Below, piece after piece: positions 1,349-16,153 of a DNA stretch of 64,000 nucleotides (its first letter is position 1; each line of letters starts with the position of its first letter). The notes below the pieces were generated by a model, which saw only the letters and a program-made list of their open reading frames with translations, did no database searches and had not been told where the DNA came from. The DNA lies in assembly GCF_027497215.1 (NCBI RefSeq), contig NZ_CP114904.1:434001-498000 (forward strand). Reading direction: 5' to 3'. Position numbers and translations under genes: made by a program. Source of the stretch: Micromonospora sp. WMMD812 (GTDB lineage Bacteria > Actinomycetota > Actinomycetes > Mycobacteriales > Micromonosporaceae).

Positions 1349-2122
1349 TCACCGATCCGCCCCGCCGGCGCGGCTCGGCGGCGCGGCGGTCACCCGGACC
1401 GCCTTGACGATCGCCGGAATCGACCCGATCAGCAGCACGAGGCCCCAGATGATGGCGACCACCGCGAAGACCAGCGCGCCCACGTCGTCGAGGATGCTCA
1501 CCAGGATCACCGGCACGAGGCGGTGCAGGAACTCCAGCAGCACCGTGCCGAGCAGGGTGGTGAGGATCAGCAGGACGAGACCCTTGTTCTGCAGGAAGCG
1601 CGGCTGGGCCAGGATCAGCAGCGCCGCCCAGGCCAGCTTGAGCAGCAGCGCCAGCCCGAGCAGCAGCGTCGCGTCACCGACCGGGAAGAAGCCCCACAGC
1701 GCCAGGTACGCGATCGTGCCGAACGGCGTGGCCAGGAAGAGCGAGACCATGACGGACAGCTCGACGAACGCCACGACCAGCGTGATCAGCGAGATGACGA
1801 TCAGGATGATCGAGAAGATCAGGGTGGCGACGCCCTGCACCCGGCCCTGGACCCGGTCGGGCAAAACCAGGCTCAGGCAGTACAGCCCGGTGCTCCAGAC
1901 CGCGACCGCGTCGATCAGCGCCAGGTAGCCGGTGCCCCGACCGGACGGTTCGCTGACCCCGGCCACGTCGCTCAGCTCGACGTCGAGCGCGTCGGCGCTG
2001 TCCCGCAGCGCGGCGCCGGCGTCCCCGCCACCGGTGAGCAGCCCGGCGCCGAACTCCACGCCGATCGCCAGGACGATCGCGAGCATCGCCAGCAGCAGGA
2101 ACGGCTTGCGCAACTCACCCAC
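1349..2122 (-). CDS. Polytopic membrane protein, last gene of the injection-system operon
   Basis: The product (257 residues) starts with a hydrophobic segment at residues 8-28, continues with a polar stretch to about residue 65, and then has roughly five further membrane-spanning segments, ending in a short basic Pro/Ala-rich cytoplasmic tail. I recognise no family. It starts 19 bases after the preceding gene and on the same strand, so it probably belongs to the contractile-injection operon. A role in anchoring, release or immunity is possible but is speculation from position alone. It could also be an independent conserved membrane protein that happens to close the operon. Confidence 0.6.
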   Translation of the reverse strand: MGELRKPFLLLAMLAIVLAIGVEFGAGLLTGGGDAGAALRDSADALDVELSDVAGVSEPSGRGTGYLALIDAVAVWSTGLYCLSLVLPDRVQGRVQGVATLIFSIILIVISLITLVVAFVELSVMVSLFLATPFGTIAYLALWGFFPVGDATLLLGLALLLKLAWAALLILAQPRFLQNKGLVLLILTTLLGTVLLEFLHRLVPVILVSILDDVGALVFAVVAIIWGLVLLIGSIPAIVKAVRVTAAPPSRAGGADR

Positions 2123-2141
2123 GGCGGGCCTCCTCGGGCGC

Positions 2142-2603
2142 TCAGGACGGGACGACGGTGACCGCGCAGCCGCCGACGCCCGGACAGGTGAGGACGATGT
2201 CGGTGGCCCCGTCGACGGCGACCCGGGCCACCGCGCCGGTGCCGTCCGCGGCCGGCTCGACCTCGTCGCGGACCGTGAACTCGGCGTCGCCGGGCGCTGG
2301 CGCGGCCACCGTGAACGGCCCGGGGCTGCGCAGGATCAGCGTCCGCAGCCCGCCCGGGTCGGCGACGTGCAGCACGCAACCGCCGACGAAGACCAGCCGG
2401 CCGGTGCCGTCGGCGCACTCCGCGGCCACCGTGGCCGGGTCCACCGCGGACCGCTCGCCGCCCAGGCCGGCGAGCCGGTCGACCAGACCGGGCCGGCCGG
2501 CGGGGTCGCCCCGGTCGCCCCGGCCGGCGCCGACCGCGACCACGAACAGCGCCACCAGCAGGACGCCGAGCGTCGCCAGCAGCGCCTTCTGCCGTCCACT
2601 CAT
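2142..2603 (-). CDS. Small single-span exported or membrane-anchored protein
   Basis: This 153-residue product starts at ATG 2603, which overlaps the stop of the upstream gene as ATGA. A longer open frame reaches 2867 but lies inside the neighbour and is rejected. A basic N-terminus (SGRQK) is followed by one hydrophobic helix at about residues 6-26 and an extracytoplasmic domain with two cysteine-containing motifs (ECADGTG and GGCVLHV), then a beta-rich C-terminus ending in [12 protein letters not shown]. The four cysteines could form disulphides outside the membrane. No family is recognised. It belongs to the injection-system operon by overlap. Confidence 0.6.
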
Positions 2604-3526
2604 CGCACGGCCAGCGGGAGCACCTCGGTGAACCGGATCGTGTCCACCCCGGCGAAGTAGCGGTCGGTGCCCTGGGTCTTGCCGACCACCACCAGGGTGA
2701 CCCGGTGCTGGCCGGCGGTGAGCCGGACGCTGCCCACGTCGATCCAGTCGGTGCGGACCACCGTCGGGGTGAAGCCGAGGAACGCGCCGCCCACCTGCGT
2801 GCCGTCGATGGCCCAGACGGTGTTGGCGTAGTCGAACGAGGTCGTCCGGACGGTCGAGAACAGCCACGTCCCGTCGGCGGGGATGTCCACCGTCACGCTC
2901 ACCTGGTCGCCGATGGCCCGGCCCTGGAAGAACAGCTGGGTGTCCCCGGACCAGGTCACCCCGCAGCAGTTGCCCTGCTCCACGACGGTCGCCGCGCTGC
3001 CCCGGGGCGACTCCACCGCCGCCGCCGACACCAGGCTCTCCGCCTCGACGGTCACCACCCGGGGATCACCGGGCGGCGGGTCGTCGCCCCGCAGCAGCAG
3101 GACGGTCACCACCGTGCCGACCAGCAGCACCAGAGCCGCCGCCGCGGCGATCCACGGCCACGGCGTCCGCTTCGGCGCGGCGACCGCGCGTACCTCGTAG
3201 GTGACCCGGCCGCTGGAACGGGAGCTCTCCTCCGGCGCGGTGTTCGCCGAGTACGCGAACCCGGTCATGTCGTAGCGGCGCGGCGGCGTGCCCGCCGGGA
3301 CGGTCAACCGGACGAGGAACGTCACCGAGCCCTGCCCGGGCACCACCCGCTGCGGCTCGGTGACCGTGAACCAGGCGCGCTGCGAGCCCTCACCCGGCGC
3401 CACGTCGAACACCACCGTGTCCGGCGCCTCGCCGGGGTTGGACACGGTGAAGGTCAGCTCGCCGGCGTTGCGGGCATCCAGGGTGAACTGCTCGGCGGCG
3501 GCGACGACCGCCCACTCGGTGGTCAT
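2600..3526 (-). CDS. Membrane-spanning protein with Ig-like N-terminus and CBM6-like C-terminus
   Basis: This 308-residue protein has three parts. Residues 1-115 look like an immunoglobulin-like beta sandwich ([17 protein letters not shown] resembles NPCBM-associated or COG1470-type folds). Residues about 118-146 are one membrane helix followed by arginines. Residues 150-305 form a beta-rich domain that starts with VTVEAES and ends with FAGVDTIRF, the framing seen in carbohydrate-binding modules of family 6/35. The start overlaps the preceding stop as ATGA, which places it inside the injection-system operon. Carbohydrate binding is a family-based inference. Topology is unclear: there is no N-terminal signal peptide, so the Ig-like part is probably cytoplasmic and the CBM-like part outside. 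Confidence 0.65.
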
Positions 3527-4038
3527 GGCGACTCCTCTGCGACGACGATCTCGACGGTGGTCGACGCGGGCTTCTCCGCCTCGACGATTCGGGTGATCAC
3601 GACCAGCTGCCCGGCCGCCGCCGGTGGCACCGTCACCACCACGTGGAATGGCTTCTCGGCCGGCTCGTCCAGGCCGAAACCGCTCAACCCGGTAGCCACC
3701 TCGAGAGCTCTTCGCATGCCGTACGGGGTGCCGCGCCAGCGGGCCAGCAACGCGCCCTGCGCCACCAGGTCCCGCAGCCGGCCGACCGGCAGCGGCGGTG
3801 GCGCGTCCGGCCGGGGCGAGGCCACCACGTGGTCCATCGCCACCCAGCGGGTCAGGTGCGCGACCAGGCCGTCCGGCGCCCGGTACGGGTCGAAGAGCGC
3901 GTCCACCTCGGCCAGGATCGCCTCGTCCGGGGCGTGCAGCGCCTCCATGACCTCCAGCAGCGCCCAGAGGACGCTGCCGGGCACGCAGGCCCGCTGGTAC
4001 GCCGCGGGCAGCAGCCGCTCAATCGCCGTTCGACGCAT
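3523..4038 (-). CDS. Phage tail protein I-type baseplate component (Afp12-like)
   Basis: The 171-residue product resembles the P2 gpI / TIGR02242 family of contractile-tail baseplate proteins. Features are the N-terminal [17 protein letters not shown] segment, an acidic helix near residues 33-48 ([18 protein letters not shown]), and the conserved [19 protein letters not shown] motif near residues 102-120. In Afp- and PVC-type particles this protein sits at the baseplate periphery beside the gpJ-type protein. The gene overlaps the upstream baseplate gene by 20 bases and the next by ATGA, so all three are translationally coupled. No tail-fibre gene follows, which is the usual arrangement in phages. 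Confidence 0.85.
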
Positions 4039-6664
4039 CCTGCCGCACCACCTCGATGTCGTGCTCGCCGGAGCAGAGCAGCCAGGTGTCCGGGACGGTC
4101 ACCACGTCGGCGGTGGCCTGGTTGGCGCTGGCCGTCCAGTCGACCGCGTCCACGCTGCGGTGGACGCCGCGTTCCCCGGCGGCCAGGATCAGCCGCCCGA
4201 CCCCGCCGGCCGCGCCCGGGCCACCGGCCGGTCCGCCGGTCACGCCCGCGCCGGTGGCCGCCGCGACCGCGTCCACCGGCACGAACCGGGTGCGGTCCCG
4301 CAGCGGCAGACCGCAGTTGACACTCACCGACGTCCACTGCGGCTGGGTGGCCAGGGTGTCCAGCCGCAGCACGCCGCCGCTCTGCGTGGCGGCCAGCGCC
4401 AGCGGGCCGGCGAAGGCCAGGTCGCGGCAGGTGCCGCCGATCCAGCCGGACTGCACCGACTGCCACTTCACGTCCGACTCGAACAGCCGGGTGCGGTGAC
4501 AGCCCTGCCCGGGCTTCTTCGGGTCCGGCTCGCCCGCGCCGCTCCACAGCAGGGTGGCCGGTCCGTCGTACTGCACCGCGAGCACCCGGTTGTCCACGTT
4601 GGCCAGGCCGACGTGGGCGAAGGTGCCCGGCCGGCCACCGGCGGTGGAGAGGTAGACCCCGAACCCGGCCTGCGCCGCCACCGCCACCCCGGGAGCCCCG
4701 CGCTCGGAGACGAAGGCGCGCACCGCGTAGAAGCCGCGGTCCGCGTCGGCCGGGTCGACGAGGATCTGCAACGGCACCGCGCCGGGCAGCAGGGACACCT
4801 CGTACAGGCCGGTGTCGGTGGCGACCAGCAGCGCGCCCGCCCCGTCCCGGTCGATCCAGGCCAGGTCGGAGATCCGGGCGTCCAGGTCGGCGAGCAGCGA
4901 CCACGTCTCGCCGAGGTCGGTGCTCAGGTGCACCCGCGAGCCGCCGGACGCCCGCAGGGTCACCACGGCCACCGAGCCGGGCCGGGGCACGATGCCGGGC
5001 CGCACCGGCGCCGGGGCGGGCGTCACCCGCAGCACCGTCTCCCCGTCGGACCGGCCGGCCGGCTCCCAGCCGGCCCCCGCGTTGGTGGAGCGGAACAGCA
5101 CCGGACCACGCCCGGCGTACCAGGTCCGGGGCTGGTACTGGTCCACGGCCAGGGCCCGCACCTCGGCGTCCGGCGCCTCGTCCACCACGAACCGCACCGA
5201 CTCGACGTAACGCACGCCCGGCTCGGCGTGCTCGAGCAACCGGTACACGTTGGACGCCCGCAACGGCTCCCCGAACGCCCACCCGTTCGGGTTGAGCGCA
5301 GTGGGCAGTGGGCTCAGCGTCTGGTGCAGCCGCTCGTGGATGCGCCGGCGGACCGCGTCGGCGTCCTCCTCCCGGCGGACCACCACCCGGGCCCGGATCG
5401 AGACCGCCTTGTACCGGGCCCAGCTCGCGCGGCAACTGGTGCCCAGCGTCCGACGGCGGTCCAGATCCGCCTCCACCCGGCGCCGCGCCTCGGCGACCTC
5501 GTGCTCGCGCAGCACCGCCACCGGCAGCCGCCCGCCCGGCCGGGTCGCCGGCGGCACGTACGGCACGAGCACCACCTCCACCTCGCCGGGGCGGGCGAAG
5601 CTGTAGACCGCGGACCGGGTGAAGGCCCGGGCCCGGGCCACCGCGCCGGAGCCGGTGGCGAGCACCTCGAAGTCCCGCGCGGTGACGGCTCGCTGCTGGG
5701 CGAAGAACTCGTACGGGCCGCGCAGCAGCGCCGACTCCATCGACTCCATGTCCCGCCCGCCGGCCGCCGGAGCGGGGTTGTCCACCCGCACCCCGGGCAG
5801 CGGGTCGCGCAGGCTGGTCAGCGTCCCGGCGGCCACGTTGCCGGCCGGCCCGCCCCCGGCGCGGTACCAGAGCCGGATCTGCCGTCCGGCCGGCGGCACC
5901 GCGGCGACGGTCACCGGCCCGGCCGGCGCCGCGTCGTCGCCCGGGTCGCGCAGGTCCAGCGCCGGGCCGAAGGTGACCGTTCCGGAGCAGCGGTCGACCC
6001 GGTACACCTTGGCCTGTGGGCCGACGCCCGCGAAGCTGTCCACCGGCCGCCAGATCTCGAAGGTCCGGCCGCCGTGCTCCCGCGCGGCCGCGCCCAGCTC
6101 CACCGACCCGGCCGGCACCTCCACGCCGAGCAGCAGGTCCAGCGGCTCGGCGGTGTGCGCGAGCGGGGCCCGGGCGGCGCGGAGCACCTGGCCGGGCTGG
6201 CCCGTGCCGGTGCCGAGCAGCTCCGCCTCGACCGGTTCGCAGTGGTGCATCCGCACGGTCACCGCGGACTCCCCGGCGGGCAGCGCCGCCGGTTCGGTGG
6301 TGACGAACACGACCGGCCGCGGATCCGCGCCGCGCGCTGCGGCGACCCGGGTGCCGGCCGGGATCCAGACCGCGCCCCGCTCCGGCCCCGTCCGGGTGAA
6401 CCGCACGTCGGCCCAGGCCACCGAGGGCGCGTGGCGGGCCACCCCGAGCAGGTTCAGGAACGAGACGTACGCCTTCTCCGGCAGCTGGTTCAGCCGGTAG
6501 ATCATCACCTCGGTGAGGTGCGCGAACGCCTCGACCAACGCCATGCCGGGGTCGTGCGCGGACAGGTCGGTCCACGCCGGGCAGGACTGCCGGATCCGCT
6601 CGCGCGCCTCGGTGACCAGGTCGAGGAAGCCGCGGTCGTCCAGGTGCGGCACGGGCAGCGTCAT
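4019..6664 (-). CDS. gpJ-type baseplate protein fused to a beta-propeller (Afp11-like)
   Basis: This 881-residue protein begins at ATG 6664, overlapping the upstream stop; longer frames run back into the neighbour and are rejected. Residues 1 to about 430 match the putative baseplate assembly / gpJ family (TIGR02243, Afp11-like), with N-terminal PAWTDLSAHDPGMALVEAFA and MIYRLNQLPEKAYVSFLNLL segments. Residues about 500-880 add a second module with repeated exo-alpha-sialidase/BNR-like strands, for example FRSTNAGAGWEPAG near 521 and VHLSTDLGETW near 578, consistent with a VPS10/BNR-type beta-propeller. Baseplate J proteins normally stop after the first module. The propeller could serve as a peripheral ligand-binding or decorating domain; that role is inference. 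Confidence 0.88.
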   Translation of the reverse strand: MTLPVPHLDDRGFLDLVTEARERIRQSCPAWTDLSAHDPGMALVEAFAHLTEVMIYRLNQLPEKAYVSFLNLLGVARHAPSVAWADVRFTRTGPERGAVWIPAGTRVAAARGADPRPVVFVTTEPAALPAGESAVTVRMHHCEPVEAELLGTGTGQPGQVLRAARAPLAHTAEPLDLLLGVEVPAGSVELGAAAREHGGRTFEIWRPVDSFAGVGPQAKVYRVDRCSGTVTFGPALDLRDPGDDAAPAGPVTVAAVPPAGRQIRLWYRAGGGPAGNVAAGTLTSLRDPLPGVRVDNPAPAAGGRDMESMESALLRGPYEFFAQQRAVTARDFEVLATGSGAVARARAFTRSAVYSFARPGEVEVVLVPYVPPATRPGGRLPVAVLREHEVAEARRRVEADLDRRRTLGTSCRASWARYKAVSIRARVVVRREEDADAVRRRIHERLHQTLSPLPTALNPNGWAFGEPLRASNVYRLLEHAEPGVRYVESVRFVVDEAPDAEVRALAVDQYQPRTWYAGRGPVLFRSTNAGAGWEPAGRSDGETVLRVTPAPAPVRPGIVPRPGSVAVVTLRASGGSRVHLSTDLGETWSLLADLDARISDLAWIDRDGAGALLVATDTGLYEVSLLPGAVPLQILVDPADADRGFYAVRAFVSERGAPGVAVAAQAGFGVYLSTAGGRPGTFAHVGLANVDNRVLAVQYDGPATLLWSGAGEPDPKKPGQGCHRTRLFESDVKWQSVQSGWIGGTCRDLAFAGPLALAATQSGGVLRLDTLATQPQWTSVSVNCGLPLRDRTRFVPVDAVAAATGAGVTGGPAGGPGAAGGVGRLILAAGERGVHRSVDAVDWTASANQATADVVTVPDTWLLCSGEHDIEVVRQDASNGD

Positions 6665-7131
6665 CACTGGCCTCCCGGCGAGAGATCGGGGTCCGGCCCG
6701 CCGGCCGGCGGCGCGTCCGGCTCGTCGGTCGGCAGCAGGTCGACGGAGAACACCAGCTGGCCGGGCGTCAGGCTGACCCGCACCCGGTAGTCGAGGCGGA
6801 TCACCAGGCGCCACGGGTCGTCCGGGTCCGGGCCGGCGTCCACGTCGATCACCTCGACCCGCGGCTCCCACCGGGCGATTGCCTGGCGCACGTAGTGGAT
6901 GGCCAGCCCGGCGGTGGTGTCGTCGTTCGGGGCGAACACCAGGCGGTGCAGTCGCGACCCGTACCCGGGCCGCATCAGCCGCTCGCCCGGCATGGTCGAC
7001 AGCAGCAGGAACAGCGCCTGGCGTACGGTCTCGTCGCCGTCGGTCATGGCCAGCCCGCCGGCCGCGGTCAGCGCCAGCCCGCCGGTGCGACCCGCGTCGA
7101 ACCCGGCGCCGACGAACCGGAAGGCCCTCAC
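6664..7131 (-). CDS. GPW/gp25-family baseplate wedge protein (Afp9-like)
   Basis: The 155-residue product contains the gp25-like lysozyme-fold domain of contractile-tail baseplates. The diagnostic region lies near residues 35-70, where ETVRQALFLLLSTMPGERLM is followed by RPGYGSRLHRLVF; this is the conserved wedge-core signature. The start is GTG at 7131, overlapping the upstream stop as GTGA, which removes a spurious N-terminal extension. In assembled particles gp25 links the inner baseplate to the first sheath ring. The C-terminal Pro/Asp/Gly tail of roughly 25 residues is low complexity and probably disordered. Confidence 0.9.
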   Translation of the reverse strand: MRAFRFVGAGFDAGRTGGLALTAAGGLAMTDGDETVRQALFLLLSTMPGERLMRPGYGSRLHRLVFAPNDDTTAGLAIHYVRQAIARWEPRVEVIDVDAGPDPDDPWRLVIRLDYRVRVSLTPGQLVFSVDLLPTDEPDAPPAGGPDPDLSPGGQ

Positions 7132-7466
7132 CGGTCCGCCCCCAGGAACCCCTGCCGTGGGTCGCGCACCCGGTGGTGGACCAGGCCCGGCGGGGTGCCG
7201 TCGGTCAGCCCGTCGAGGTGGGACAGCACCACCCGCCGGCCGTCGACGCGCAGCCAGTCGCTGTAGCCGACCCGCACCGGCAGCGTCTTCGCGCACGGCT
7301 TCACCGTCGGCCCGTAGTTCGGGCAGGCGGTGATCTCCCGCCCCTCCGGGTCGTCGTCGACCAGCGCCGGCACGCCGCCGACCGTCACCCAGCGCTGGGA
7401 CGGGCGGTTCTCGACGCGCCCGTCGTGGTCGCAGGTGATCACGGAGTCGCGATGGATCCACCGCAT
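7128..7466 (-). CDS. Putative PAAR-like spike-tip protein (Afp10-like)
   Basis: This small protein (112 residues) lies exactly between the VgrG spike and the gp25 wedge genes, where Afp- and PVC-type clusters encode the spike tip. It is beta-rich, with a Cys-containing ITACPNYGPTVKPCAKTLPV segment at about residues 45-64 and a VRVDGRRVVLSHLDGLTDGTPPG-like strand-turn pattern after it, which recalls PAAR-like tip proteins. The histidines and cysteines (H14, C49, C57 and others) could bind a metal. It is joined to both neighbours by short overlaps. Similarity is by position and pattern rather than a clear PAAR motif, so the assignment is tentative. Confidence 0.55.
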   Translation of the reverse strand: MRWIHRDSVITCDHDGRVENRPSQRWVTVGGVPALVDDDPEGREITACPNYGPTVKPCAKTLPVRVGYSDWLRVDGRRVVLSHLDGLTDGTPPGLVHHRVRDPRQGFLGADR

Positions 7467-9061: not shown

Positions 9062-9873
9062 CGGGCACCGCCCGTTCCGGACGGCACGGTGCCGGTCGTC
9101 GTCGCACCGGCCCGGCCGGGCACCGGTTCGGCCGGGCCGGTCGGCGTCGGGGTGATCAGGCCGGCCACCGGCGGCACGGCCAGCGCCGTGCCCGGGGGCA
9201 CGCTCATCGGGTCGGTGACCCGGTTGTGCTCGGCGAGCAGCCGCCAGCGCAGCGGTGAGCCGAGCGCGTCGTGGGCGAGCAGGTCGAACCGGACGCCGGA
9301 GTAGCCGGGCGCCGCGGCGCCGTCCCCGGCGGCCACGACGGCGGCGCCCGGCGCGGCGGTCGGCGTGCTCGCGGCCGCCAACTCCTCCTCGAAGCCGGCC
9401 TGCGCCTGGTCGGCGCTCTCCGCCACCCGGACCAGCTTGAGTCGCAGCCAGGAGCGGCGCGGCGAGCCGGTGCCGGTGAACGCGTCGAACCGCTCCGCGA
9501 CCGCGACGATCACGCCGGGCACGTTCCACGCCTTGCCCCAGACCAGCCGGACCAGCGGCGGACGGAGCCAGCCGTGCTCGGCGGTCGAGTTCTCCGCAAG
9601 CATCCACAGGGGCCGGGTCAGCGCCCGGACGTCGTCCGGGCGGACCTGCGCCTCGACGAAGTCGACGTCGAAGAGCAGGTCCAGCACCAGTTCGGTGCGG
9701 CCGCCGCCGGTGAACACCAGCGTGTCGTCGGCCAGCCCGGCGCCGGTGAGCTGGCCGCCGGCCGCGGACCGGTGGCGTACCCCGGCGAGCCGGGTCACCT
9801 GCACCGTCTCCGGGTTGAGCAGGCAGTCCACCCGGGCGCCGCTGGCGTCGACGAGGAAGGCGACCCGTTCCAT
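9058..9873 (-). CDS. CIS tube/LysM protein linking tube and baseplate (Afp7-like)
   Basis: This 271-residue protein starts at ATG 9873, adjacent to the stop of the disordered-protein gene. Residues 1-150 fit the CIS_tube N-terminal domain (AFLVDASGARVDCLLNPETV, then VLDLLFDVDFVEAQ and LVRLVWGKAWNVPGVIVAV). After an alanine/proline linker, residues about 190-235 form a LysM-like domain (VRFDLLAHDALG, then WRLLAEHNRVTDPMSVPPGTALAVPP region). In Afp and PVC particles this protein tops the spike and starts the inner tube. The remaining C-terminus is Thr/Pro/Gly-rich and probably flexible. Confidence 0.88.
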   Translation of the reverse strand: MERVAFLVDASGARVDCLLNPETVQVTRLAGVRHRSAAGGQLTGAGLADDTLVFTGGGRTELVLDLLFDVDFVEAQVRPDDVRALTRPLWMLAENSTAEHGWLRPPLVRLVWGKAWNVPGVIVAVAERFDAFTGTGSPRRSWLRLKLVRVAESADQAQAGFEEELAAASTPTAAPGAAVVAAGDGAAAPGYSGVRFDLLAHDALGSPLRWRLLAEHNRVTDPMSVPPGTALAVPPVAGLITPTPTGPAEPVPGRAGATTTGTVPSGTGGAR

Positions 9874-11576
9874 CAGCCACCCGCCTGTTCCCGGTCCAGC
9901 CGGCCCGCGTGCCCGGCGGCCAGGGCGTCGCCCAGCGCGGTCCAGAGCGGACCGTCGTCCGGCAACTCGGGCCACGGGCCGCCCGTCGGGGTGGCCCGCC
10001 GTCCGCCGCGGGGCACGCCCCGGTCGGCGCCGCCGGGTCCGGCCGGGTCCGGCAGCGCCGGCCATCGGTCCTCGACGCCACGTGGCCCGGGAGCGCCGCC
10101 GCCGGCCGGCGCCGGCACGCCACCGACGTCCGGCACCCCGAGCGGTACGGTGCCCGGCCCCCACGGTGGGGCGTCGGTCCGGCGGACGTCGCCGCCCTCC
10201 TTCGTGCTCCGGACCACTGCCACGTCGCCCCGCCCGTCCGCGGTACGACCCGTCAGCCACCCGGAACCCCCGGCCGCCCGGCCCGGCCCGGCGACCGACG
10301 CCCGCGCGGCCGACCACCGCGTGCTCGGCCCGTGCGGGCCAGGCCAGCGCGTGCCGGGTCCCTGCGTGCCGGGTCCCGGCGTGCTTGGTCCCTGCGTGCT
10401 CGGTCCCTGCGTGCCCAGCCACTGTGTGCCCGGGTGCTGTGCGGCCGAGCGCTGTGCGGCCGGAAGCTGTGAGGTCGGGTGCTGTGCGGCCGGTCCTGCC
10501 GGACGGCCGGCGCGATCCCCACCCCAGCCGCTGTACTCGGCTTCACTACCGGCAACGTCCGACGTCCGCGGGCCGGACGGGGGGTCCTGACGTCGCGGAA
10601 GCGGGGCGAAGGCCGCGCTACCGGGGTGGGCGTCGGCCGGAGCCGAGCCGGTGACCACGGCGCGGGAGGCCCAGGCCGGGGTCCCGGAGCCGTCGGCGTG
10701 GTCCGTCCGGCCCGGGCCGGCGGTCCGGCTCGCGGTCCAGGGGCCGCCCTGACTCCCGCCCCGGCCGTCGTTCCCGCTCCCCATCGTGGCGGCGGACGGC
10801 GCCGCCAGCTGGCCGCCCGGCTCGGTGCGCGACGCGGGGTGTTCGCCGTACGCCTCCCGGGCCGACTCGACCCGGCCGACACCGCCCCGGCCGACACCGC
10901 CCCGGCCCGGACGCCGCCCCGCATTCCGGCGGCGCCGGCCCCAGCGGGCCAGGCCGGCCCGACCCCGGTCGCCGGCGTCGGTGTGACCGGGAGCCGTCAC
11001 ACCGGGCGCGGCTGCGAGCGGCGGCACCGCCGGGCGCACCGGTGGGGCGCCCCGGACGTCACCGGCGAACTCGTGGCCGTCGCCCTCTCGCTCGCCGTCG
11101 CCGAAACCGTGGTCGAAACCGACGCCGTGGCCGTAACCGTCGTGGCCCTGGCCGTGGCCGTGGTCGTGCCAGTCGCCCTGGCCGAGACGGTGGCCGAATC
11201 CGTCGCCGCCCTGGCCGGCGCCACCGCGATCGGTCGGGTCCGGCGCGGATCCCGCCGGGCCGACGGGCCCACCGGTGCGGGGCGCGCCCGCGGCCGGGTC
11301 GTCGCCCCAGGCCGGACCGGACCCGGGGTCGAGCGGCAGGCCGTCGAGCAGCCCGGGGGCGTGCGCGGCGACCATCCGCAGCCAGTGCTCGGGAGGCTGG
11401 CCCGGCCGCCGGGTCCCCGGGCCGGGGCCGCCGGCCCCGATGCGGCCCGGTCCGGCCGGCCCTCCAGCGGGTGCGCCGGAGCGTCCGGGCTCGGCCAGCC
11501 CGGCCAGCCGCTGCGCCGTCGAGGCCACCGACCGGAGCCCGCTGGCCAGCCAGCTACGCGGGCGTCGGCGCGGCAC
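9873..11576 (-). CDS. Large low-complexity, probably disordered protein of the injection-system operon
   Basis: The 567-residue product is dominated by Gly, Pro, Ala, Ser and Arg. Only three parts look ordered: an N-terminal amphipathic segment (residues 8-28, SWLASGLRSVASTAQRLAGL), a short stretch near 62-80 (PEHWLRMVAAHAPGLLDGLP), and a C-terminal Trp motif region with WPALPD and WPELPDDGPLWTALGDALA. A His/Gly/Asp-rich block lies at about residues 137-165, and twelve pentapeptide repeats lie at 363-422. The gene overlaps the tube gene by 23 bases and touches the LysM gene, so its expression is tied to the core of the particle. It could be an unusual tape-measure, scaffold or lumen protein; I recognise no family. 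Confidence 0.7.
   Translation of the reverse strand: MPRRRPRSWLASGLRSVASTAQRLAGLAEPGRSGAPAGGPAGPGRIGAGGPGPGTRRPGQPPEHWLRMVAAHAPGLLDGLPLDPGSGPAWGDDPAAGAPRTGGPVGPAGSAPDPTDRGGAGQGGDGFGHRLGQGDWHDHGHGQGHDGYGHGVGFDHGFGDGEREGDGHEFAGDVRGAPPVRPAVPPLAAAPGVTAPGHTDAGDRGRAGLARWGRRRRNAGRRPGRGGVGRGGVGRVESAREAYGEHPASRTEPGGQLAAPSAATMGSGNDGRGGSQGGPWTASRTAGPGRTDHADGSGTPAWASRAVVTGSAPADAHPGSAAFAPLPRRQDPPSGPRTSDVAGSEAEYSGWGGDRAGRPAGPAAQHPTSQLPAAQRSAAQHPGTQWLGTQGPSTQGPSTPGPGTQGPGTRWPGPHGPSTRWSAARASVAGPGRAAGGSGWLTGRTADGRGDVAVVRSTKEGGDVRRTDAPPWGPGTVPLGVPDVGGVPAPAGGGAPGPRGVEDRWPALPDPAGPGGADRGVPRGGRRATPTGGPWPELPDDGPLWTALGDALAAGHAGRLDREQAGG
10311..10490 (-). repeat. Twelve in-frame 15-base repeats encoding pentapeptides
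   Basis: These 180 bases inside the disordered-protein gene encode twelve pentapeptides in a row, such as AAQHP, GTQGP, STQGP and GTRWP, giving the pattern (small)(Thr/Ala)(Gln/Arg)x(Pro). The DNA itself is repetitive with a 15-base period, so the number of units can probably change by slippage without a frameshift. Confidence 0.8.
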
Positions 11577-12033
11577 CGCCGGTCTCCAGGTCCAGACCCT
11601 CGTACCGCAGGGTCAGCGCGGCGATGGCGATCTCCTGGCCGAGGGTGTTCAGCGCGGCACCACGCCACCCGGTCGGCCACGCGTTGATCAGGTTCCAGCG
11701 CAGCACCTCGGCCGTGCCCGCCGCGTCGAGCAGCACGATCGACACGTTGCGCCGGCTCACCACGCCCTTCGCCACCGCGTGCACCCAGTCCCACAGTTCC
11801 CGCGACGCGGTCAGTCCGAAGTGCAGGGTGACCGGCTCGTACTCCACCTGGCCCGGCACGATCCGGATCCGGTCGGTGCCGTGCTCCCGGTACGGGATCC
11901 CCGGAATGCTCATCGCCAGGCCGCTGACCTCGGTGAAGTGCCCGCTGGCCACGCCGTTGACGAGCAGACGGAAGTTGTACGCCCGGTACGGGTCGACCGG
12001 GGCGCCCGGTTGCGGGGTGGCCGTGGTCGGCAT
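11554..12033 (-). CDS. Tail tube protein (gp19/Afp1-like)
   Basis: This 159-residue protein matches the T4 gp19-like tube family used by contractile injection systems. Signature elements are PYRAYNFRLLVNGVASGHFTEVSGL-type sequence near residues 15-40, the central VEYEPVTLHFGLTASRELWDW strand-helix at about 63-83, and WNLINAWPTGWRGAALNTLG near 113-133. Only one tube gene is present, whereas Afp has two (Afp1, Afp5). It follows the sheath gene by one base and overlaps the next gene, so sheath and tube are made from one message. Confidence 0.92.
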   Translation of the reverse strand: MPTTATPQPGAPVDPYRAYNFRLLVNGVASGHFTEVSGLAMSIPGIPYREHGTDRIRIVPGQVEYEPVTLHFGLTASRELWDWVHAVAKGVVSRRNVSIVLLDAAGTAEVLRWNLINAWPTGWRGAALNTLGQEIAIAALTLRYEGLDLETGGAAPTPA

Positions 12034-12034
12034 G

Positions 12035-13282
12035 TCAGCCTCCGATCGTCTCGGTCTCGGTGCCGCCGGCCCACTGGCTCAGCTTGAACACCACGAACTC
12101 CGCGGGCTTCACCACCGCGATGCCGATGTGCGCCACCACCATCCCGGCGTCGCGTACCTCCGGCGGGTTGGTCTCCTCGTCGCACTTGACGAAGAACGCC
12201 TCCTCGGCCGTACGCCCCAGCAGCGCGCCGTCGCGCCACACCCGGGTGAGGAACGCGCCGATGTCGCGGCGGATCGAGCGCCAGAGGGAGAAGTCGTTCG
12301 GCTCGAACACCATCCACCGGGTGCCGTTGGCGATGGCCTGCTCGATGGCGATGGACAGCCGCCGGACGTTGAGGTAACGCCACTCGCTGGCCTCGGCGGC
12401 GAGCGTACGGGCGCCCCAGACACGAATGCCCTCGCCGGCGAAGTAGCGGATCACGTTGACGCCCTTGGGGTTGAGCACGTCGTGCTCCGGGCGGGTGACC
12501 AGGTACGCCAGGTCGACCGCGCCGCGTACCGGCTCGTTGGCCGGAGCCTTGTGCACCCCGCGCAGGCCGTCGGTGCGGGCCCAGATGCCGGCCATGTGCC
12601 CGCTCGGCGGGGTGAGCACCAGGTCGCCGCTGAGCGGGTCGCGCACGCGCAGCCACGGGTAGTAGAAGGCGCCGAAGTCGGACTGCCGTGGCCGGTACGC
12701 CGCCAGCCCCGCCTCGCCGGAGCCGCCGGAGCCCGAGCCGCCGGAGCCCGAGCCGCCCGAGCCCTCGGCCGGCTTCGGCGGCTTGCCGCTCGACGGGGTG
12801 GCGACCCGGGTCAGCGCGGAGACGTCGTCGATGTCGGGCGCGGGGTCGCAGATCGCGACCATCGTGCGCAGCCGCTCCGCCATGCTGAGCAGCGCGTCGT
12901 GGGAGACCGGGTCGTGGAAGCCGGGGGCGGCGAGGATGGAGATCTCGTCGACCGCCTCGAGGAGCTGGAGCCCGCCGCGCCGCTGCCCGGTGCCGGTGAT
13001 CGCGCCGCCCTCGCCGACGTTGACCACCCAGCACCGGGTGCCGCCGTTGTCCAGGAACCCGAACACCGCCCGGGCCAGCGGCGTGCTCTCCAGGTGCTCC
13101 CCGTCGGCGTAGAGGCGCAGGAAGTCCGACCAGTTGTTGACCGGCAGCGCCTTGCCCAGGTGGGCACCCGAATCCGGGGCGACGCCGACGAAGGCGGCGG
13201 TGCTGGTGCCGGCCGGGCCGATCGGTCTGGCGCCGCTCGGCACCTCCTCGACGTAGATGCCGGGGGAGAAGTAGCTGGGCAT
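12035..13282 (-). CDS. Contractile tail sheath protein (Afp2/3/4-like)
   Basis: The product (415 residues) begins with the typical sheath N-terminus PSYFSPGIYVEEVPSGARPI and shows the family regions TAAFVGVAP near 28-36, GGTRCWVVNV near 80-90, the long C-terminal fold with IRVWGARTLA and WMVFEPND, and AFFVKCDEETNPPE near 365-378. In the particle it forms the outer contractile cylinder driving the tube. An extra Gly-Ser run, about twenty residues of GSG-type sequence around residues 170-190, interrupts the middle domain at a position expected to face outward. One sheath gene is present, unlike the two or three of Afp/PVC. An ATG at 13282 with an upstream GGAGGA motif fits as the start. Confidence 0.93.
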   Translation of the reverse strand: MPSYFSPGIYVEEVPSGARPIGPAGTSTAAFVGVAPDSGAHLGKALPVNNWSDFLRLYADGEHLESTPLARAVFGFLDNGGTRCWVVNVGEGGAITGTGQRRGGLQLLEAVDEISILAAPGFHDPVSHDALLSMAERLRTMVAICDPAPDIDDVSALTRVATPSSGKPPKPAEGSGGSGSGGSGSGGSGEAGLAAYRPRQSDFGAFYYPWLRVRDPLSGDLVLTPPSGHMAGIWARTDGLRGVHKAPANEPVRGAVDLAYLVTRPEHDVLNPKGVNVIRYFAGEGIRVWGARTLAAEASEWRYLNVRRLSIAIEQAIANGTRWMVFEPNDFSLWRSIRRDIGAFLTRVWRDGALLGRTAEEAFFVKCDEETNPPEVRDAGMVVAHIGIAVVKPAEFVVFKLSQWAGGTETETIGG

Positions 13283-13297
13283 CGGTCCTCCTGGGGA

Positions 13298-13996
13298 TCA
13301 GCCGGGCCGTGGCGGGCAGACGATGACGATGTCGGGTTCGGTGGGGTCGACGTCGGCGGTGAGCACCCGGCCCCGGCCGGTCAGCCGCAGCCGCACCGGC
13401 CCCGGGTGCTCCGGGTCGTGCGGGACGCCGACCACCCGGAACCGGCCGCCGGCGTCGGTCGCCGTCACGTACGCCGTGCCGGGCACCTCGACCCGCATCG
13501 CGGCCAGTGGTTGGTCCTCCGGTCCGACCACCCGGCCGCCGAAGGTGAGCGACTCGAGCTGTCGGAGCCGGATCGGGTGGAGCACGGGCGGCGCCGCCGG
13601 CGTCGGGTGCGCGACCTGTGCCGGCACGTCGATGAGCAGCGCCGGGCGCGGGCCGGTGCCGAAGGCGTCCCAGAGCCGGGAGTCGCCTGCCTCCAGCAGC
13701 ACCGCGTAGCCGCCGTCGCGGGTGGCGGCGGCGAGCACCCGGTCCAACCCCGGCAGCCCCGCGGGGCCGTTGGCGCAGACCAGGTAACGAACCGTGAAGC
13801 GGTACGGCTCCCGCACCGCGCCGCTGCCGCGGGTCTGCCGGGCCGGGCAGAGCTCGAGCGGCCAGAGGGTCAGCTCGCCGGTGTCGTCGGCGGGCCGGGG
13901 CGGACCGACCGGGACGGGTGCGCCCGCCGCCGTGGCCAGCCAGGCGGCCAGCTCGGCGGTGGCCGTCTCGATCGGTCCGCGTCCGTCGCCGCTCAT
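13298..13996 (-). CDS. Tail-terminator-like protein with carboxypeptidase-regulatory-like C-terminal domain
   Basis: The 232-residue protein starts at ATG 13996, overlapping the previous stop as ATGA; a longer in-frame extension covers the neighbour and is rejected. Residues 1-150 resemble in length and pattern the DUF4255/Pvc16 N-terminal fold of cap proteins (LTLWPLELCPAR, then YRFTVRYLVC and LWDAFGTGPRPALLIDVP). Residues about 158-225 are a carboxypeptidase-regulatory-like beta sandwich (LTFGGRVVGPEDQPLAAMRVEV, TDAGGRFRVVGVP). Position directly upstream of the sheath gene agrees with a tube or sheath cap. The second domain is firmly patterned; the cap assignment is tentative. Confidence 0.6.
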   Translation of the reverse strand: MSGDGRGPIETATAELAAWLATAAGAPVPVGPPRPADDTGELTLWPLELCPARQTRGSGAVREPYRFTVRYLVCANGPAGLPGLDRVLAAATRDGGYAVLLEAGDSRLWDAFGTGPRPALLIDVPAQVAHPTPAAPPVLHPIRLRQLESLTFGGRVVGPEDQPLAAMRVEVPGTAYVTATDAGGRFRVVGVPHDPEHPGPVRLRLTGRGRVLTADVDPTEPDIVIVCPPRPG

Positions 13997-14601
13997 CGCG
14001 GGGGAGTCCCCTGGATCCGGTACGCGATGGCCTCGTTCCAGACGTGCGGGTAGACGCCGATCTCGAAGTACCGGGTGAACCGGTTGATCGGCGCGTTGCG
14101 GTGGTCGTGGTAGAGCAGCCACACCGGCGCGATGGTGAAGAGCACGTAGTTCGCGAGCACCAGCGGGATGTAGAGCGGCCCGAGCAGCCGGGCCTGGAGG
14201 ATGTGCACGTCCTCGTGCCGCTGGATGCCCGGGCCGGAGCCGGCGCAGACCGTGCCGATCGTGGTGGCGTACCGGGGTGAGACGCCCTCCACCACGTTCA
14301 CCCGGCAGCTGTGCTGCGAGGTGGCCCGGTCCAGCGAGTGACCGAAGACCAGGTGCGCGGCGAGGTAGACCGCGCCGACCACCGTGTTGAGCAGGCTCCA
14401 GGTGTGGTCGACGACGAAGAGGAACACGCCCCGGGCGTCCGGGTCGTACACCCGGGCGGAGGCGACCGCCCAGCCGAACGGCGCGCCGACCAGCACGCCC
14501 ACGACGGCACCGATCAGCAGGCCGGCCGGGCCGCCGGCCCAGACGCCGAACGCCGCGCCGAGCAGGACGTGCGCCGCCGCGCTGACGATTCCGTAGACCA
14601 T
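13993..14601 (-). CDS. Membrane protein with HExxH zinc-protease-like motif
   Basis: This 202-residue protein has two hydrophobic segments near residues 5-45, a third at about 64-86, then a polar central part and a further hydrophobic pair near 143-165. The central part carries H129-E130-D131-V132-H133 in the context QRHEDVHILQARLLGPLYIP. This matches a recurrent bacterial membrane-protein pattern where HExxH precedes a Gln-x-x-x-x-Gly-Pro-Leu-Tyr stretch, and a glutamate at 190 could be a third ligand. Proteolysis is therefore plausible but untested; the motif may only bind metal structurally. The ATG at 14601 follows GGGAGTC. Its end overlaps the cap-like gene as ATGA, so it is part of the injection operon. 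Confidence 0.65.
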   Translation of the reverse strand: MVYGIVSAAAHVLLGAAFGVWAGGPAGLLIGAVVGVLVGAPFGWAVASARVYDPDARGVFLFVVDHTWSLLNTVVGAVYLAAHLVFGHSLDRATSQHSCRVNVVEGVSPRYATTIGTVCAGSGPGIQRHEDVHILQARLLGPLYIPLVLANYVLFTIAPVWLLYHDHRNAPINRFTRYFEIGVYPHVWNEAIAYRIQGTPPR

Positions 14602-14611
14602 GACGACTCCC

Positions 14612-14956
14612 TCAGACCCAGGAGCGGATGATGCGGGGCTCGCGGCCCTGCGTGACCTGCGTCGGCGACGCCTGCGTCGCCTGCCGGTTGCCGGGCGGGA
14701 GCTGGTTGATGCCGAGGGCGGCGGAGAAGATGACCAGCCCGTTGAAGAACGCGATGATCCACTTCTCGGCACCGGCGTCGGTGGCGAACGCCGCCGTGAC
14801 GTAGGACAGGGCGAGCGCGATGCCTACCGCTATCCACTTGCGTGCCTTGTCGCCGCTCGGGCCGATCAGCCCGCCGATGACGTTGGTGGCCAGCAGCGTC
14901 GCGGCGCTGGCGCCGGTGAGGCTGCCGAGGGCGGCCCAGGTGAAGAGATCGTTCAC
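14612..14956 (-). CDS. Small holin-like membrane protein, first gene of the injection operon
   Basis: This 114-residue protein has about three hydrophobic segments (residues 6-30, 40-62 and 66-85) and ends in a polar Gln/Pro/Arg-rich tail. Size and topology resemble phage holins, although no specific holin family can be named. It starts at GTG 14956 with an upstream GGGGGGA purine run and ends 10 bases before the next gene. As first gene of a run of fourteen overlapping or adjacent genes it marks the likely 5' end of the operon; a promoter would lie in 14957-15065. A holin-like role in releasing or anchoring particles is inference. Confidence 0.6.
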   Translation of the reverse strand: MNDLFTWAALGSLTGASAATLLATNVIGGLIGPSGDKARKWIAVGIALALSYVTAAFATDAGAEKWIIAFFNGLVIFSAALGINQLPPGNRQATQASPTQVTQGREPRIIRSWV

Positions 14957-15896: not shown

Positions 15897-15908
15897 GGAA
15901 CGAGTGTG

Positions 15909-15924
15909 TGTGATCGCTATCACC
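15909..15924. promoter_or_regulatory. Possible Crp/GlxR-type operator
   Basis: TGTGATCGCTATCACC fits the TGTGA-n6-TCACA consensus of cAMP-responsive Crp/GlxR regulators with one mismatch. It lies 12 bases upstream of the LppM-like start codon, so it would act within the leader or as a roadblock unless transcription starts nearby. A single match could be chance. Confidence 0.35.
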
Positions 15925-16153
15925 ACAGCAGTCGGTGATCAGTCACAACGCAGTCGCCGATCTTACCAGCGCGCTGTCACGTTCGGCCGAGGCCGAAAAT
16001 CAACGGAATGGATATCCTGAAGGGTTTGTCCATTCCGGACGTCCAACGTCGACCGGCGCCGCGATTGTCCGTGCCCGGCCGCGGCCCTGCCGCCACTCCC
16101 GCCCGGAGGCCGCCGCCACCCTCATCGTCGGCCGGCCTGGGTAGGCTGCGGCC

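Follow-up and report, generated by a model that had tools for sequence, protein, structure and literature searches.

A contractile injection system operon of Micromonosporaceae, commonly without an AAA+ ATPase and linked to membrane protein genes

Micromonospora sp. WMMD812, a soil bacterium, carries a contractile injection system (CIS) operon in the window analyzed here, a 64,000-nt stretch of contig NZ_CP114904.1 (434,001–498,000). By sequence, the system is akin to the Streptomyces CIS in its sheath and baseplate. Most genomes that bear this operon lack both a CIS-type AAA+ ATPase and the eCIS_core (DUF4157) domain, and the operon is linked to genes for membrane proteins. The best explanation, to which we assign a probability of about 0.55, is that an ATPase-free, DUF4157-poor CIS works inside its producer, docked to the producer's own membrane, and is fired at the producer's own envelope. 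The same figure jointly covers the proposal that the lineage is a vertically maintained Micromonosporaceae branch of eCIS-derived CISs. What is observed beneath this explanation is which genes the operon contains, how they are conserved and co-occur, their domain architecture, and the lack of AAA+ and eCIS_core.

The operon runs from 14956 to 1349 and comprises 15 closely packed genes, all on the minus strand. A sequence-only reading had described 14 adjacent or overlapping CIS genes; the tight same-strand arrangement is borne out, but the open reading frame at 9873–11576 had been overlooked. The genes are listed below in the direction of transcription, preceded by an upstream neighbor.

15066–15926, minus strand: LppM-domain lipoprotein-like gene (PF21946, 7.3e-30), upstream of the holin-like gene
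14612–14956, minus strand: holin-like small membrane protein, 114 aa, GTG start (Phage_holin_5_2, E = 0.014, below cut-off; no PHROG)
13993–14601, minus strand: HExxH membrane protein, 202 aa, facultative (no family above cut-off)
13298–13996, minus strand: Pvc16/Cis16-type cap (tail terminator) with a CarboxypepD_reg-like domain, 232 aa (matches below cut-off, and place)
12035–13282, minus strand: contractile sheath, 415 aa (PF04984, 7.7e-15; PF17482, 8.5e-15)
11554–12033, minus strand: tube, 159 aa, sole tube gene (PF06841, 2.7e-32; TIGR02241, 6.2e-33; matches Pvc1 and Afp1)
9873–11576, minus strand: low-complexity protein rich in Pro, Gly, Ala, and Thr, at most 567 aa (open frame; no family)
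9058–9873, minus strand: Cis7-type baseplate/LysM protein, 271 aa (CIS_tube PF19266, 1.9e-11; last part resembles 9gtp_P, E = 0.003)
7466–9061, minus strand: VgrG/Cis8 spike hub, 531 aa (PF04717, 6.9e-18; PF05954, 7.9e-17)
7128–7466, minus strand: 112-aa protein at the PAAR position, a tip by location alone (no family above cut-off)
6664–7131, minus strand: gp25/Cis9 baseplate wedge (PF04965, 1.5e-24)
4019–6673, minus strand: gpJ/Cis11 baseplate protein, 884 aa (PF04865; TIGR02243, 2.6e-83)
3523–4038, minus strand: gpI/Cis12 (Tail_P2_I), 171 aa (PF09684, 9.9e-6; TIGR02242, 2.2e-10, below cut-off)
2600–3526, minus strand: bitopic adaptor, 308 aa, predicted Ig-like domain (~1–115), helix span (123–145), and CBM-type ectodomain (~157–302)
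2142–2603, minus strand: small 153-aa protein with a single N-terminal span and four cysteines in its outer part (no family in Pfam, NCBIfam, or PHROGs)
1349–2122, minus strand: polytopic membrane protein, 257 aa (co-occurs with the operon sheath)

The features of an eCIS are set out by Vladimirov (2023) and Geller (2021), and reportedly by Chen (2019). In the window, the earlier sheath, tube, VgrG, gp25, gpJ, and gpI labels are all supported by families above curated cut-offs, and the LysM label agrees with CIS_tube above cut-off and with the LysM protein 9gtp_P. The claim of one sheath and one tube gene also holds, with one tube gene in the operon and one sheath_1C match in the organism's genome. 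VgrG (Afp8) and gpJ (Afp11), the pair present together in 98.7% of eCIS loci (PMC8213781), are both above cut-off. Two labels fared worse. The "PAAR-like tip" has no Pfam or NCBIfam match, so that its name reflects size and place only, although its position is conserved in all loci long enough to reach it. The "holin-like" protein scores 16.1 bits with Hol44 (E = 0.014), where the cut-off is 29.2, and at E ≤ 0.01 no operon protein reaches a PHROGs holin family. A look for promoter-like signals at the operon gave none.

The sheath is most similar to the solved structures 8bky (identical in sequence in 9gtp) and 8bl4 (9gts), and its 415 residues compare with 534 and 539 in solved type IId sheaths. 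The cap gene opens the core set in the window, as it does in all 28 other loci compared, and it has the right size and place for a tail terminator; its matches to CarboxypepD_reg (9.3e-6, 26.3 bits, cut-off 32.3) and Pvc16_N (E = 0.03) are both below cut-off, and BLAST aligns it at 30% identity over 38% of the query with the same-place gene beside the AAA+ gene in L046. The gap separating the tube gene from the LysM gene holds a single uninterrupted reading frame, both in the window and in each of 25 further operon-type loci that have the two flanking genes called. The encoded proteins share a WPxL ... EQxG end and are probably disordered; the window's copy matches no family in Pfam, NCBIfam, or PHROGs. 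The hub matches NF033848 below cut-off (3.6e-43) and the solved hubs 7aef_q and 9gtr_q, and gp25 may start at ATG 7047 (127 aa) or GTG 7131 (155 aa). The alignment of gpJ with S. coelicolor 9gtp_1K (1.3e-66) ends at residue 493, leaving a C-terminal extension of ~390 aa with Asp-box-like motifs. Such motifs number one or two in each of nine operon-type gpJ proteins and are absent from the one IId protein tested. Residues 612–769 match an F510_1955 glycosylhydrolase at 1.3e-7 (31.1 bits, far under the cut-off of 175), and the extension searched alone finds no solved relative. From these motifs, the extension is perhaps a β-propeller.

The gene order cap, sheath, tube, low-complexity, LysM, VgrG, PAAR, gp25, gpJ, gpI, adaptor, single-span, polytopic is retained across the operon-type loci read, except in short contigs (L060, L062, L063), variants (L069, L072), L071, which has a second adaptor gene, and L043, which has an inserted ORF. 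The operon occurs in seven genus codes of one family, Micromonosporaceae. The full-length Micromonospora loci read are complete, apart from the HExxH gene in L045, and outside L045 they share 72–96% identity with the window in sheath, tube, hub, and baseplate and 62–76% in the cap. Thirteen operon-type sheaths form a single clade of their own (100/99, 1 change), which joins the AAA+-bearing two-sheath systems L076/L079 at 84/82 only, in a tree that carries a long-branch warning.

Upstream of the core genes, conservation is narrower. Among the loci read, the holin-like and HExxH genes are confined to Micromonospora. The former is present in all 18 other Micromonospora operon loci read and absent from L064–L073. 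Of the 21 genomes of the genus that bear the operon, 20 carry the latter, as do 2 of the 16 that lack an operon sheath; in these two (G032 and G035), it is the sole operon remnant, at a site sharing neighbors with the window's. The LppM-domain gene, which stands ahead of the holin-like gene in 15 further Micromonospora loci as well, may be the first operon gene in this genus.

The closest characterized relative is the S. coelicolor CIS (CIS-Sc; type IId eCIS; Casu 2023/2025, Vladimirov 2023), which the window resembles in the C-terminal half of the sheath, the gpJ/Cis11 core, and part of the LysM protein. The sequence-only reading had stressed the lack of tape-measure and fibre genes. Indeed, none of the 15 operon proteins reaches such a family (Pfam, NCBIfam; PHROGs at E ≤ 0.01), in contrast to an R-type tailocin or prophage tail, whose cluster would carry both. 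This lack does not, however, mark out a special system; CIS-Sc likewise has no tape measure or conventional fibres (PMC10066040, PMC12237407), although another group calls one of its membrane-span proteins a putative fibre (PMC10020575). In both systems, a membrane-span protein (CisA in CIS-Sc) is encoded just 3′ of the baseplate genes, and the CIS-Sc cluster encodes one-span proteins with a lectin domain that recall the window's adaptor. Of the two, CIS-Sc alone has the Cis15 AAA+ ATPase (sco4259) and two inner-tube homologues, whereas the single tube gene, the gpJ extension, and the single-span and polytopic pair are found only in the window. The DUF4157/Sle-type pair of SLP, a close relative of CIS-Sc (PMC13277306), is missing from the window's operon. 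The S. davawensis CIS (PMC11126660), in whose main text the word ATPase does not occur, also has a big, mostly disordered protein, Tme, just upstream of the baseplate genes; Tme is far larger, with DUF4157 and endonuclease domains, whereas the window's counterpart lacks a Pfam match. A peptidoglycan-binding protein at the end of that cluster was proposed to provide envelope attachment.

Published work treats the ATPase as integral: eCIS regions "invariably" encode it according to PMC10020575, and it is a critical feature of eCIS clusters in PMC8910223. The earlier claim that no Afp15-type AAA+ ATPase is present holds for the operon and for the whole genome, in which the best AAA match scores 79.7 bits, as compared to 342–895 bits for the best match in each CIS-AAA+-positive genome. 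The eCIS_core domain is likewise absent from this genome. A CIS-type AAA+ is lacking in 42 of the 54 operon-bearing genomes tested, the window's own included, and 41 of these 42 also lack eCIS_core. The remaining 12 do have an AAA+. For 10 of them, the best match belongs to another CIS cluster or sits close to one: three share a cluster with another sheath, and, by coordinates, six are within ~7 kb of another sheath and one within ~20 kb. The other two are G488 and G621. The absence of AAA+ is a trait of the lineage. Across all 66 genomes tested, eCIS_core is present in 19 of 21 with a CIS AAA+ and absent in 41 of 45 without one. Given six exceptions (G581 and G590 with AAA+ and no eCIS_core; G474, G025, G050, and G525 with the reverse), the pairing is not a strict rule, but the pattern fits an ATPase that would act as a cargo loader, a role for which AAA+ is required in Photorhabdus (PMC11495950).

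The S. coelicolor sco4259 mutant forms normal-looking particles, and biological activity needs the ATPase (PMC10020575). ATPase-free assembly is plausible because these particles form normally; because activity needs the ATPase, AAA+ loss could mean a weakened machine. Nor is the loss unique to this lineage, since another CIS group also lacks the ATPase. The genomes of the actinomycete loci L047 (G050), L074 (G474), and L085 (G025) have no CIS AAA+ at E ≤ 1e-40, and for the related L052 of G012 the genome's only strong match sits at its other CIS locus. Unlike the window, these four loci have eCIS_core, which in L074, L052, and, by coordinates, L085 lies inside a large protein between tube genes; these three have at least two tube-like genes. 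The sheaths of L047, L052, and L074, together with that of L075, form a separate clade (97/93; L085 is not on the tree).

The polytopic protein is closely linked to the operon. All 45 sampled genomes that have a full-length operon sheath encode it, whereas the 155 others, the split variant G556 among them, do not, and it lies 9.8–11.4 kb from the sheath in the 40 genomes with both on one contig. Its structure model, of moderate quality, has no counterpart among known folds. In L065 and L070, the single-span place is occupied by a protein without a BLAST match to the window's, assigned by eye. The single-span and polytopic proteins are not indispensable to every relative: variants L069 and L072 lack both and retain the adaptor. 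The earlier suggestion of a membrane-associated or reduced system thus gains from the polytopic linkage and from the joint absence of AAA+ and eCIS_core in 41 of 54 genomes; the tape-measure and fibre argument, the facultative HExxH gene, and the Micromonospora-only holin-like gene do not contribute to it.

The adaptor was modeled with a mean pLDDT of 92.9 as an Ig domain, a helix, and a CBM. Its ectodomain resembles the xanthan-binding module 7ehg (profile, 1.5e-9; TM up to 0.84 on the target). Six relatives carry a PASTA ectodomain in its place with the Ig domain conserved, and the two copies in L071 have nearly the same N-termini and different C-termini. The adaptor is predicted to combine a conserved Ig domain and one span with a swapped outer domain, here a glycan-binding CBM. 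By hhalign, its N-domain matches the first Ig domain of a Streptomyces RICIN/"hydrolase" family at 94.3% probability (controls: ≤0.3% for five column shuffles, 0.1% for an unrelated profile). The full-length profile comparison instead aligns it to the second Ig domain plus span (85.5%; 33.8% for the isolated second domain), and pairwise BLAST with two CIS-linked Ig proteins is not significant. The 94% match may reflect fold type only, such Ig domains being common.

We infer the following mechanism. The tube−sheath−baseplate particle would assemble in the cytoplasm, and the membrane module would dock it to the producer's own cytoplasmic membrane, with the polytopic protein as the membrane seat. 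The adaptor's Ig domain, predicted to be cytoplasmic, would contact the baseplate, perhaps via the gpJ extension, and the CBM or PASTA domain outside would hold or sense surface glycan or the cell wall. Contraction, set off within the cell by wall damage or some other stress, would then breach the envelope and kill or open the cell, much as proposed for the CisA-dependent S. coelicolor CIS. The adaptor and CisA are alike in place, downstream of gpI, and in having a single span. The thylakoid CIS of Anabaena (PMC8894136) offers a precedent for anchoring within the producing cell and may contribute to cell death under stress; its anchor consists of a transmembrane helix of fibre-like Cis13 and a Cis12 extension rather than separate membrane genes. 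More tentatively, and at less than even odds, this would be a distinct CIS class that has dispensed with AAA+ and DUF4157 cargo and gained a dedicated membrane complex of the Ig-TM-CBM/PASTA adaptor, the four-cysteine single-span protein, and the polytopic seat, its wall-binding ectodomain acting as the trigger for firing at the producer's envelope.

The adaptor could instead be a payload, loaded in the tube lumen and put into the producer's membrane, where its outer domain would disturb the wall in ATPase-free self-killing. Its architecture, as seen in sequence and model, is that of Sco4256–4258, described as effectors: one span, a similar N-terminus, and a carbohydrate-binding C-terminus in two of the three. 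These proteins are needed for stress-induced death, and their deletion leaves most tubes empty (PMC10066040). One group found sco4256 and sco4242 in purified particles, the former in three of three purifications (PMC10020575), so the adaptor could also be a component of the particle rather than an anchor. The RICIN/hydrolase family is tied to Sco4256–4258 by names and cluster place only. A conserved N-terminus with swapped C-terminal domains, as in the two copies of L071, is typical of effectors, and eCIS_core is absent in the 41 operon genomes. Against this stands the location of the adaptor gene, directly 3′ of gpI in CisA's place and not between the sheath and ATPase genes, as does the requirement for loading in Photorhabdus of an AAA+, which this system lacks. 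We consider a payload role doubtful.

Somewhat less likely still is a T6SS-like system, anchored by the polytopic protein and adaptor and fired outward through the producer's wall into touching neighbors. Haloarchaeal CISs with a linked polytopic protein (six predicted spans), a proposed anchor, are contact-dependent T6SSs (PMC11566945), and the window's polytopic protein is similarly linked. The haloarchaeal anchor has a cytoplasmic domain of ~150 residues, unlike the window's, and those clade IIa systems possess all Cis homologues but cis6, cis14, and cis19, hence a fibre and an ATPase. The window's genome offers no eCIS_core effector, profile searches of the operon proteins yield no recognizable toxin family (Pfam/NCBIfam) and no TssJLM or ClpV family above cut-off, and an ectodomain that binds wall or glycan on the side of the producer would favor a self-directed role.

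A released eCIS or tailocin of the ordinary kind, with a target-binding part that went unrecognized, is improbable. The cap-place gene, sheath, tube, and baseplate set are present, the gpJ extension could bind glycan, and the holin-like gene could help release; but a soluble particle would not be expected to include three membrane proteins, the weakly matching holin-like gene is limited to Micromonospora among the loci read, and the closest characterized relative is cytoplasmic rather than released (PMC10066040). Least probable by far is a decaying relic that has lost its ATPase and effectors, as the split sheath and gpJ of G556 (L072) and the lone HExxH gene of G032 and G035 might suggest, given the complete full-length Micromonospora loci, their high identity, and seven genus codes.

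On the favored reading of a CIS docked to the producer's own membrane, the exchangeable glycan- or peptidoglycan-binding adaptor offers a testable answer to how Gram-positive cytoplasmic CISs might locate the membrane and detect stress on the wall. The lineage keeps a CIS without the ATPase that published work calls invariable, and it would escape surveys that rely on this ATPase as a marker. The AAA+-free operon genomes are natural test cases for the role of that ATPase.

The operon consists of 15 closely packed genes called in the window on the minus strand from 14956 to 1349. The sequence-only reading, which recognized a contractile injection system (CIS) here, counted 14 genes, having overlooked the low-complexity gene between the tube and LysM genes; the observation as a whole is confirmed with this and other corrections. 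Read from the 14956 end, and preceded by one further gene, the order is as follows.

Genes of the operon and its upstream neighbor, in order of transcription
15066-15926, minus strand: lipoprotein-like gene with an LppM domain, immediately preceding the holin-like gene
from 14956, minus strand, in this order: holin-like; HExxH; Pvc16-type cap; sheath; tube
9873-11576, minus strand: long low-complexity (disordered) protein
next, minus strand, in this order: LysM/Cis7; VgrG; protein in the PAAR place; gp25; gpJ; gpI
2600-3526, minus strand: bitopic adaptor with a carbohydrate-binding ectodomain
2142-2603, minus strand: small single-span protein
1349-2122, minus strand: polytopic membrane protein

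In family searches of the operon proteins, the sheath, tube, Cis7, VgrG, gp25, gpJ, and gpI exceed curated cut-offs, and PHROGs assigns the sheath, tube, VgrG, gp25, and gpJ to tail families. No tape-measure family was reached by either type of search, and the PHROGs fibre and holin families are likewise absent among the operon proteins. Three labels are less secure. The small gene called holin-like is present, but the label itself is weak in family searches, PHROGs included; the "PAAR-like" tip has no family support; and the cap is recognized mainly from its size and place, with two domain matches that both fall under the cut-off. The LppM-domain gene is kept at its place in 15 Micromonospora loci besides the window and shares a few bases with the holin-like gene in the locus of genome G013 (L045); it is a possible further membrane-linked member of the operon. 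Scans of the operon were uninformative, returning no promoter-like site and a single terminator-like site, which lies inside the HExxH gene. Some relatives carry additional genes. In L043 (G022), a TnpB-like ORF at 2412-3623, presumably of the IS200/605 type as judged by reading the sequence, sits between the gpI and adaptor genes, and the adaptor gene retains its own start. In two loci (L064:13983-16265 and L066:3316-5862), the cap gene is preceded on its own strand by a Pfam-checked TPR-CHAT (caspase-like protease) gene, beyond which L066 has a subtilase gene and a sigma-factor gene on the opposite strand; N-terminal sequences similar to these TPR-CHAT proteins occur in L067, L068, and L070.

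Passages of PMC10020575 state that eCIS regions invariably encode the AAA+ ATPase, and passages of PMC8910223 call its presence a critical feature of eCIS clusters. The sequence-only reading saw no such gene in the operon. A profile built from eight CIS AAA+ (Cis15/Afp15-type) proteins was searched against 20 and then 46 whole genomes, 54 with the operon and 12 without, with matches listed at E ≤ 1e-10 in the 20-genome run and at E ≤ 1e-40 only in the 46-genome run. These and the following eCIS_core counts omit four (G004, G014, G028, and G029) of the 58 operon-bearing genomes met. The absence is real: 42 of the 54 operon genomes lack a CIS AAA+. In the 20-genome run, AAA matches reach at most 138 bits in the 13 genomes that have the operon as their sole sheath and 618-781 bits in the seven with another CIS, "another sheath" meaning one over the thresholds used in the family searches of 61 relatives and 200 genomes. 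An Afp15-type ATPase elsewhere in the window's own genome was also looked for with this profile; the best match there is 79.7 bits, and supply of the ATPase in trans is rejected because no CIS AAA+ is present.

Where an operon genome does contain a CIS AAA+, the gene mostly lies near a different sheath. In G545, G630, and G590, its cluster contains another sheath, and the best match lies, by coordinates, within approximately 7 kb of a different sheath in G022, G033, G455, G506, G567, and G616 (only the best of three matches was placed in G567). In G581, it is clustered with gpJ- and gp25-like genes approximately 20 kb from a different sheath. In G488, it is on a separate contig from the operon, and no sheath was seen on that contig; in G621, an AAA+ gene is present and the operon is broken over short contigs. 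The clusters of G545:C2, G630:C2, and G590:C98 (L082, L083, and L084) are very different CIS clusters within the family with their own AAA+, and one of them has a sheath-like ORF of 987 aa.

The distribution of eCIS_core (DUF4157) is similar. This domain is missing from 41 of the 42 AAA-free operon genomes, the exception (G525) having one match of 26.6 bits. It is present in 10 of the 12 AAA+-bearing operon genomes and in every one of the 12 operon-free genomes, nine of which have AAA+. DUF4157 thus accompanies the ATPase in most genomes. Absence of the ATPase is not unique to this lineage, because G474, G025, and G050 (loci L074, L085, and L047) have eCIS_core and no CIS AAA+ at E ≤ 1e-40; therefore, at least one more ATPase-less CIS group exists. 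These three loci and L052 (G012) make up a second CIS group, in which L074 and L052 have the eCIS_core domain inside a large protein between tube genes.

Among 61 relatives searched, 21 of the genus's 37 genomes have the operon sheath, including the window's own and G013, whose match is in two pieces. At a threshold of 1e-60, the full-length sheath is present in 45 of 200 family genomes, drawn as even samples of the family (30 from the same genus and 15 from six other genus codes). Protein names show the genus to be Micromonospora and suggest Hamadaea for one of the others. In a class-wide draw of 394 genomes, the full-length sheath occurs in just two, both of the same genus, and the polytopic protein is found in the same two. 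In a sheath tree of 34 selected rows, the 13 operon-type rows form one clade (support 100/99; one change, in 100% of 200 bootstrap trees). Closest to it are rows from L076 and L079, two-sheath loci with an AAA+ ATPase, a placement that has support of 84/82 and a long-branch warning. Two divergent variants are known. G488 has a second operon (L069; G488:C1:344000-363900) that lacks the single-span and polytopic genes; an eCIS_core protein of 593 aa is encoded downstream of it and a lantibiotic dehydratase upstream. In G556, which is outside the 58 operon-bearing genomes, the sheath and gpJ of the variant L072 (G556:C3:378600-398500) are each split into two frames, reflecting either a dying locus or assembly errors; L072 was left out of the tree. 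A search of open-licence PMC papers returned nothing pairing CIS with Micromonosporaceae or with "PASTA domain".

Among the 200 family genomes, the polytopic protein tracks the sheath exactly: the 45 with a full-length operon sheath all have it, and it was not found in the other 155, which include G556, whose variant operon has adaptors and neither a single-span nor a polytopic gene. Sheath and polytopic genes are 9.8-11.4 kb apart in the 40 genomes in which they share a contig and are on different contigs in five. This co-occurrence is seen within a single family and partly reflects common descent, and the two variant operons (L069 and L072) do without the polytopic protein. Its fold was unhelpful in identifying it; the model is moderate, and no PDB match was found at E ≤ 0.001. 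The single-span proteins of L065 and L070 have no BLAST match to that of the window and were matched by eye.

The HExxH gene is facultative. It is present in 20 of the 21 operon-bearing genomes of the genus, but it was lost in G013 and was not found in the operon loci read from other genera; G032 and G035, in which no sheath was matched, retain it next to flanking genes shared with the window's site.

The adaptor model is of high confidence (mean pLDDT 92.9, pTM 0.55). Its N-terminal domain is Ig-like, a helix covers residues 123-145, and the outer part is a carbohydrate-binding module (CBM); among solved structures, a xanthan-binding module comes closest to this CBM, with a profile E of 1.5e-9 and, by fold, a TM of up to 0.84 on the target. 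Lysine and arginine residues lie before the span and acidic residues shortly after it, so by the positive-inside rule the Ig domain is predicted to be cytoplasmic. In six relatives (L064-L068 and L070), a PASTA ectodomain over the Pfam cut-off replaces the CBM. PASTA domains bind peptidoglycan and its precursors, such as lipid II. L071 (G485) has a tandem adaptor pair whose N-terminal halves are almost the same and whose ectodomains differ, which we read from the sequences as domain exchange by duplication, and L072 has an additional short adaptor that stops after the span. These observations indicate that the N-terminus is constant and the outer domain exchangeable.

The adaptor occupies the same place as CisA of the S. 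coelicolor CIS and has the architecture of Sco4256-4258. According to PMC10066040, the latter resemble each other at the N-terminus and have a single span each, and two of the three end in a carbohydrate-binding domain; when they are missing, most tubes look empty and stress death is lost. The adaptor N-domain aligns with the first Ig domain of a Streptomyces RICIN/"hydrolase" family with an hhalign probability of 94.3%, compared with 33.8% for the second Ig domain, at most 0.3% for five column shuffles, and 0.1% for an unrelated profile. The shuffles permute the columns of one alignment and so do not control for generic Ig-fold similarity, which is a possible source of the match. Unlike the isolated domain, the full-length profile (85.5%) aligned to the second Ig domain and span, and pairwise BLAST gave no significant match between the adaptor and two CIS-linked Ig proteins. 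The family was found with the CIS-linked L051 protein, and its member P0353 has a PASTA domain; names and cluster place suggest that it includes Sco4256-4258.

The low-complexity protein fills the gap, 871 to 1927 bases long, that separates the tube gene from the LysM gene. One frame is open throughout this gap in the window and 25 other operon-type loci, with the common ending WPxL ... EQxG. Relatives' genes come from a simple caller that uses codon bias learned from the 15 genes of the window, and the count covers loci with both flanking genes called. L063 was left out, as were L032 and L033 because their LysM gene was uncalled; BLAST recovered it in the latter two. The protein holds the place of Tme, the tape-measure-related effector of the S. 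davawensis CIS (passages of PMC11126660), so the lack of a tape measure is not certain; it could be a cargo or a length-control protein. Nor are missing tape-measure and fibre genes the distinguishing trait they first seemed, because the S. coelicolor CIS lacks both according to passages of PMC10066040 and PMC12237407. The proposal of a reduced, membrane-associated system is therefore partly supported, in its missing ATPase and its membrane module and not in these two absences.

The core proteins resemble those of solved particles to different degrees. The tube comes closest to Pvc1 and Afp1, and no solved relative was found for the cap or gpI. For the VgrG hub, 7aef_q, which we take to be from the Algoriphagus system, is the best match and the S. 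coelicolor hub 9gtr_q the next. The sheath's best solved relatives are 8bky (same sequence as 9gtp) and 8bl4 (9gts), with E values no higher than 1.7e-100 and alignments lying mainly in its C-terminal half; it has 415 aa, whereas two solved IId sheaths have 534 and 539. gpJ matches 9gtp_1K at 1.3e-66. According to the CisA paper, 9GTP, 9GTR, and 9GTS all come from the S. coelicolor CIS. gpJ also has approximately 390 extra residues carrying Asp-box-like motifs. Nine operon-type gpJ proteins have one or two each and the single IId protein tested has none; shuffles average fewer than 0.2 per protein, yet individual shuffles contain up to three. Part of the extension matches the NCBIfam F510_1955 glycosylhydrolase at 1.3e-7, far under the family cut-off, and the extension searched alone has no solved relatives; a beta-propeller is therefore only a guess.

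Beyond gene content and architecture, we infer the following working from the genes alone. The particle would assemble in the cytoplasm without an ATPase, which is feasible because, in passages of PMC10020575, an S. coelicolor ATPase mutant still forms normal-looking particles. The mutant does lose activity, and this need for the ATPase in S. coelicolor weakens the case. The adaptor and polytopic protein would together keep the baseplate on the cytoplasmic side of the producer's membrane, the adaptor's outer domain would rest on wall or surface glycan, and contraction would strike the envelope of the producer itself. In the main competing reading, the adaptor is payload rather than an anchor, for which the detection of sco4256 in purified S. 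coelicolor particles speaks (PMC10020575). An outward, T6SS-like mode is a further possibility; passages of PMC11566945 link haloarchaeal CIS clusters of that mode to a polytopic protein, as in the window's operon. What is new is a conserved CIS lineage that is ATPase-free, is nearly always eCIS_core-free, and has a linked membrane module.
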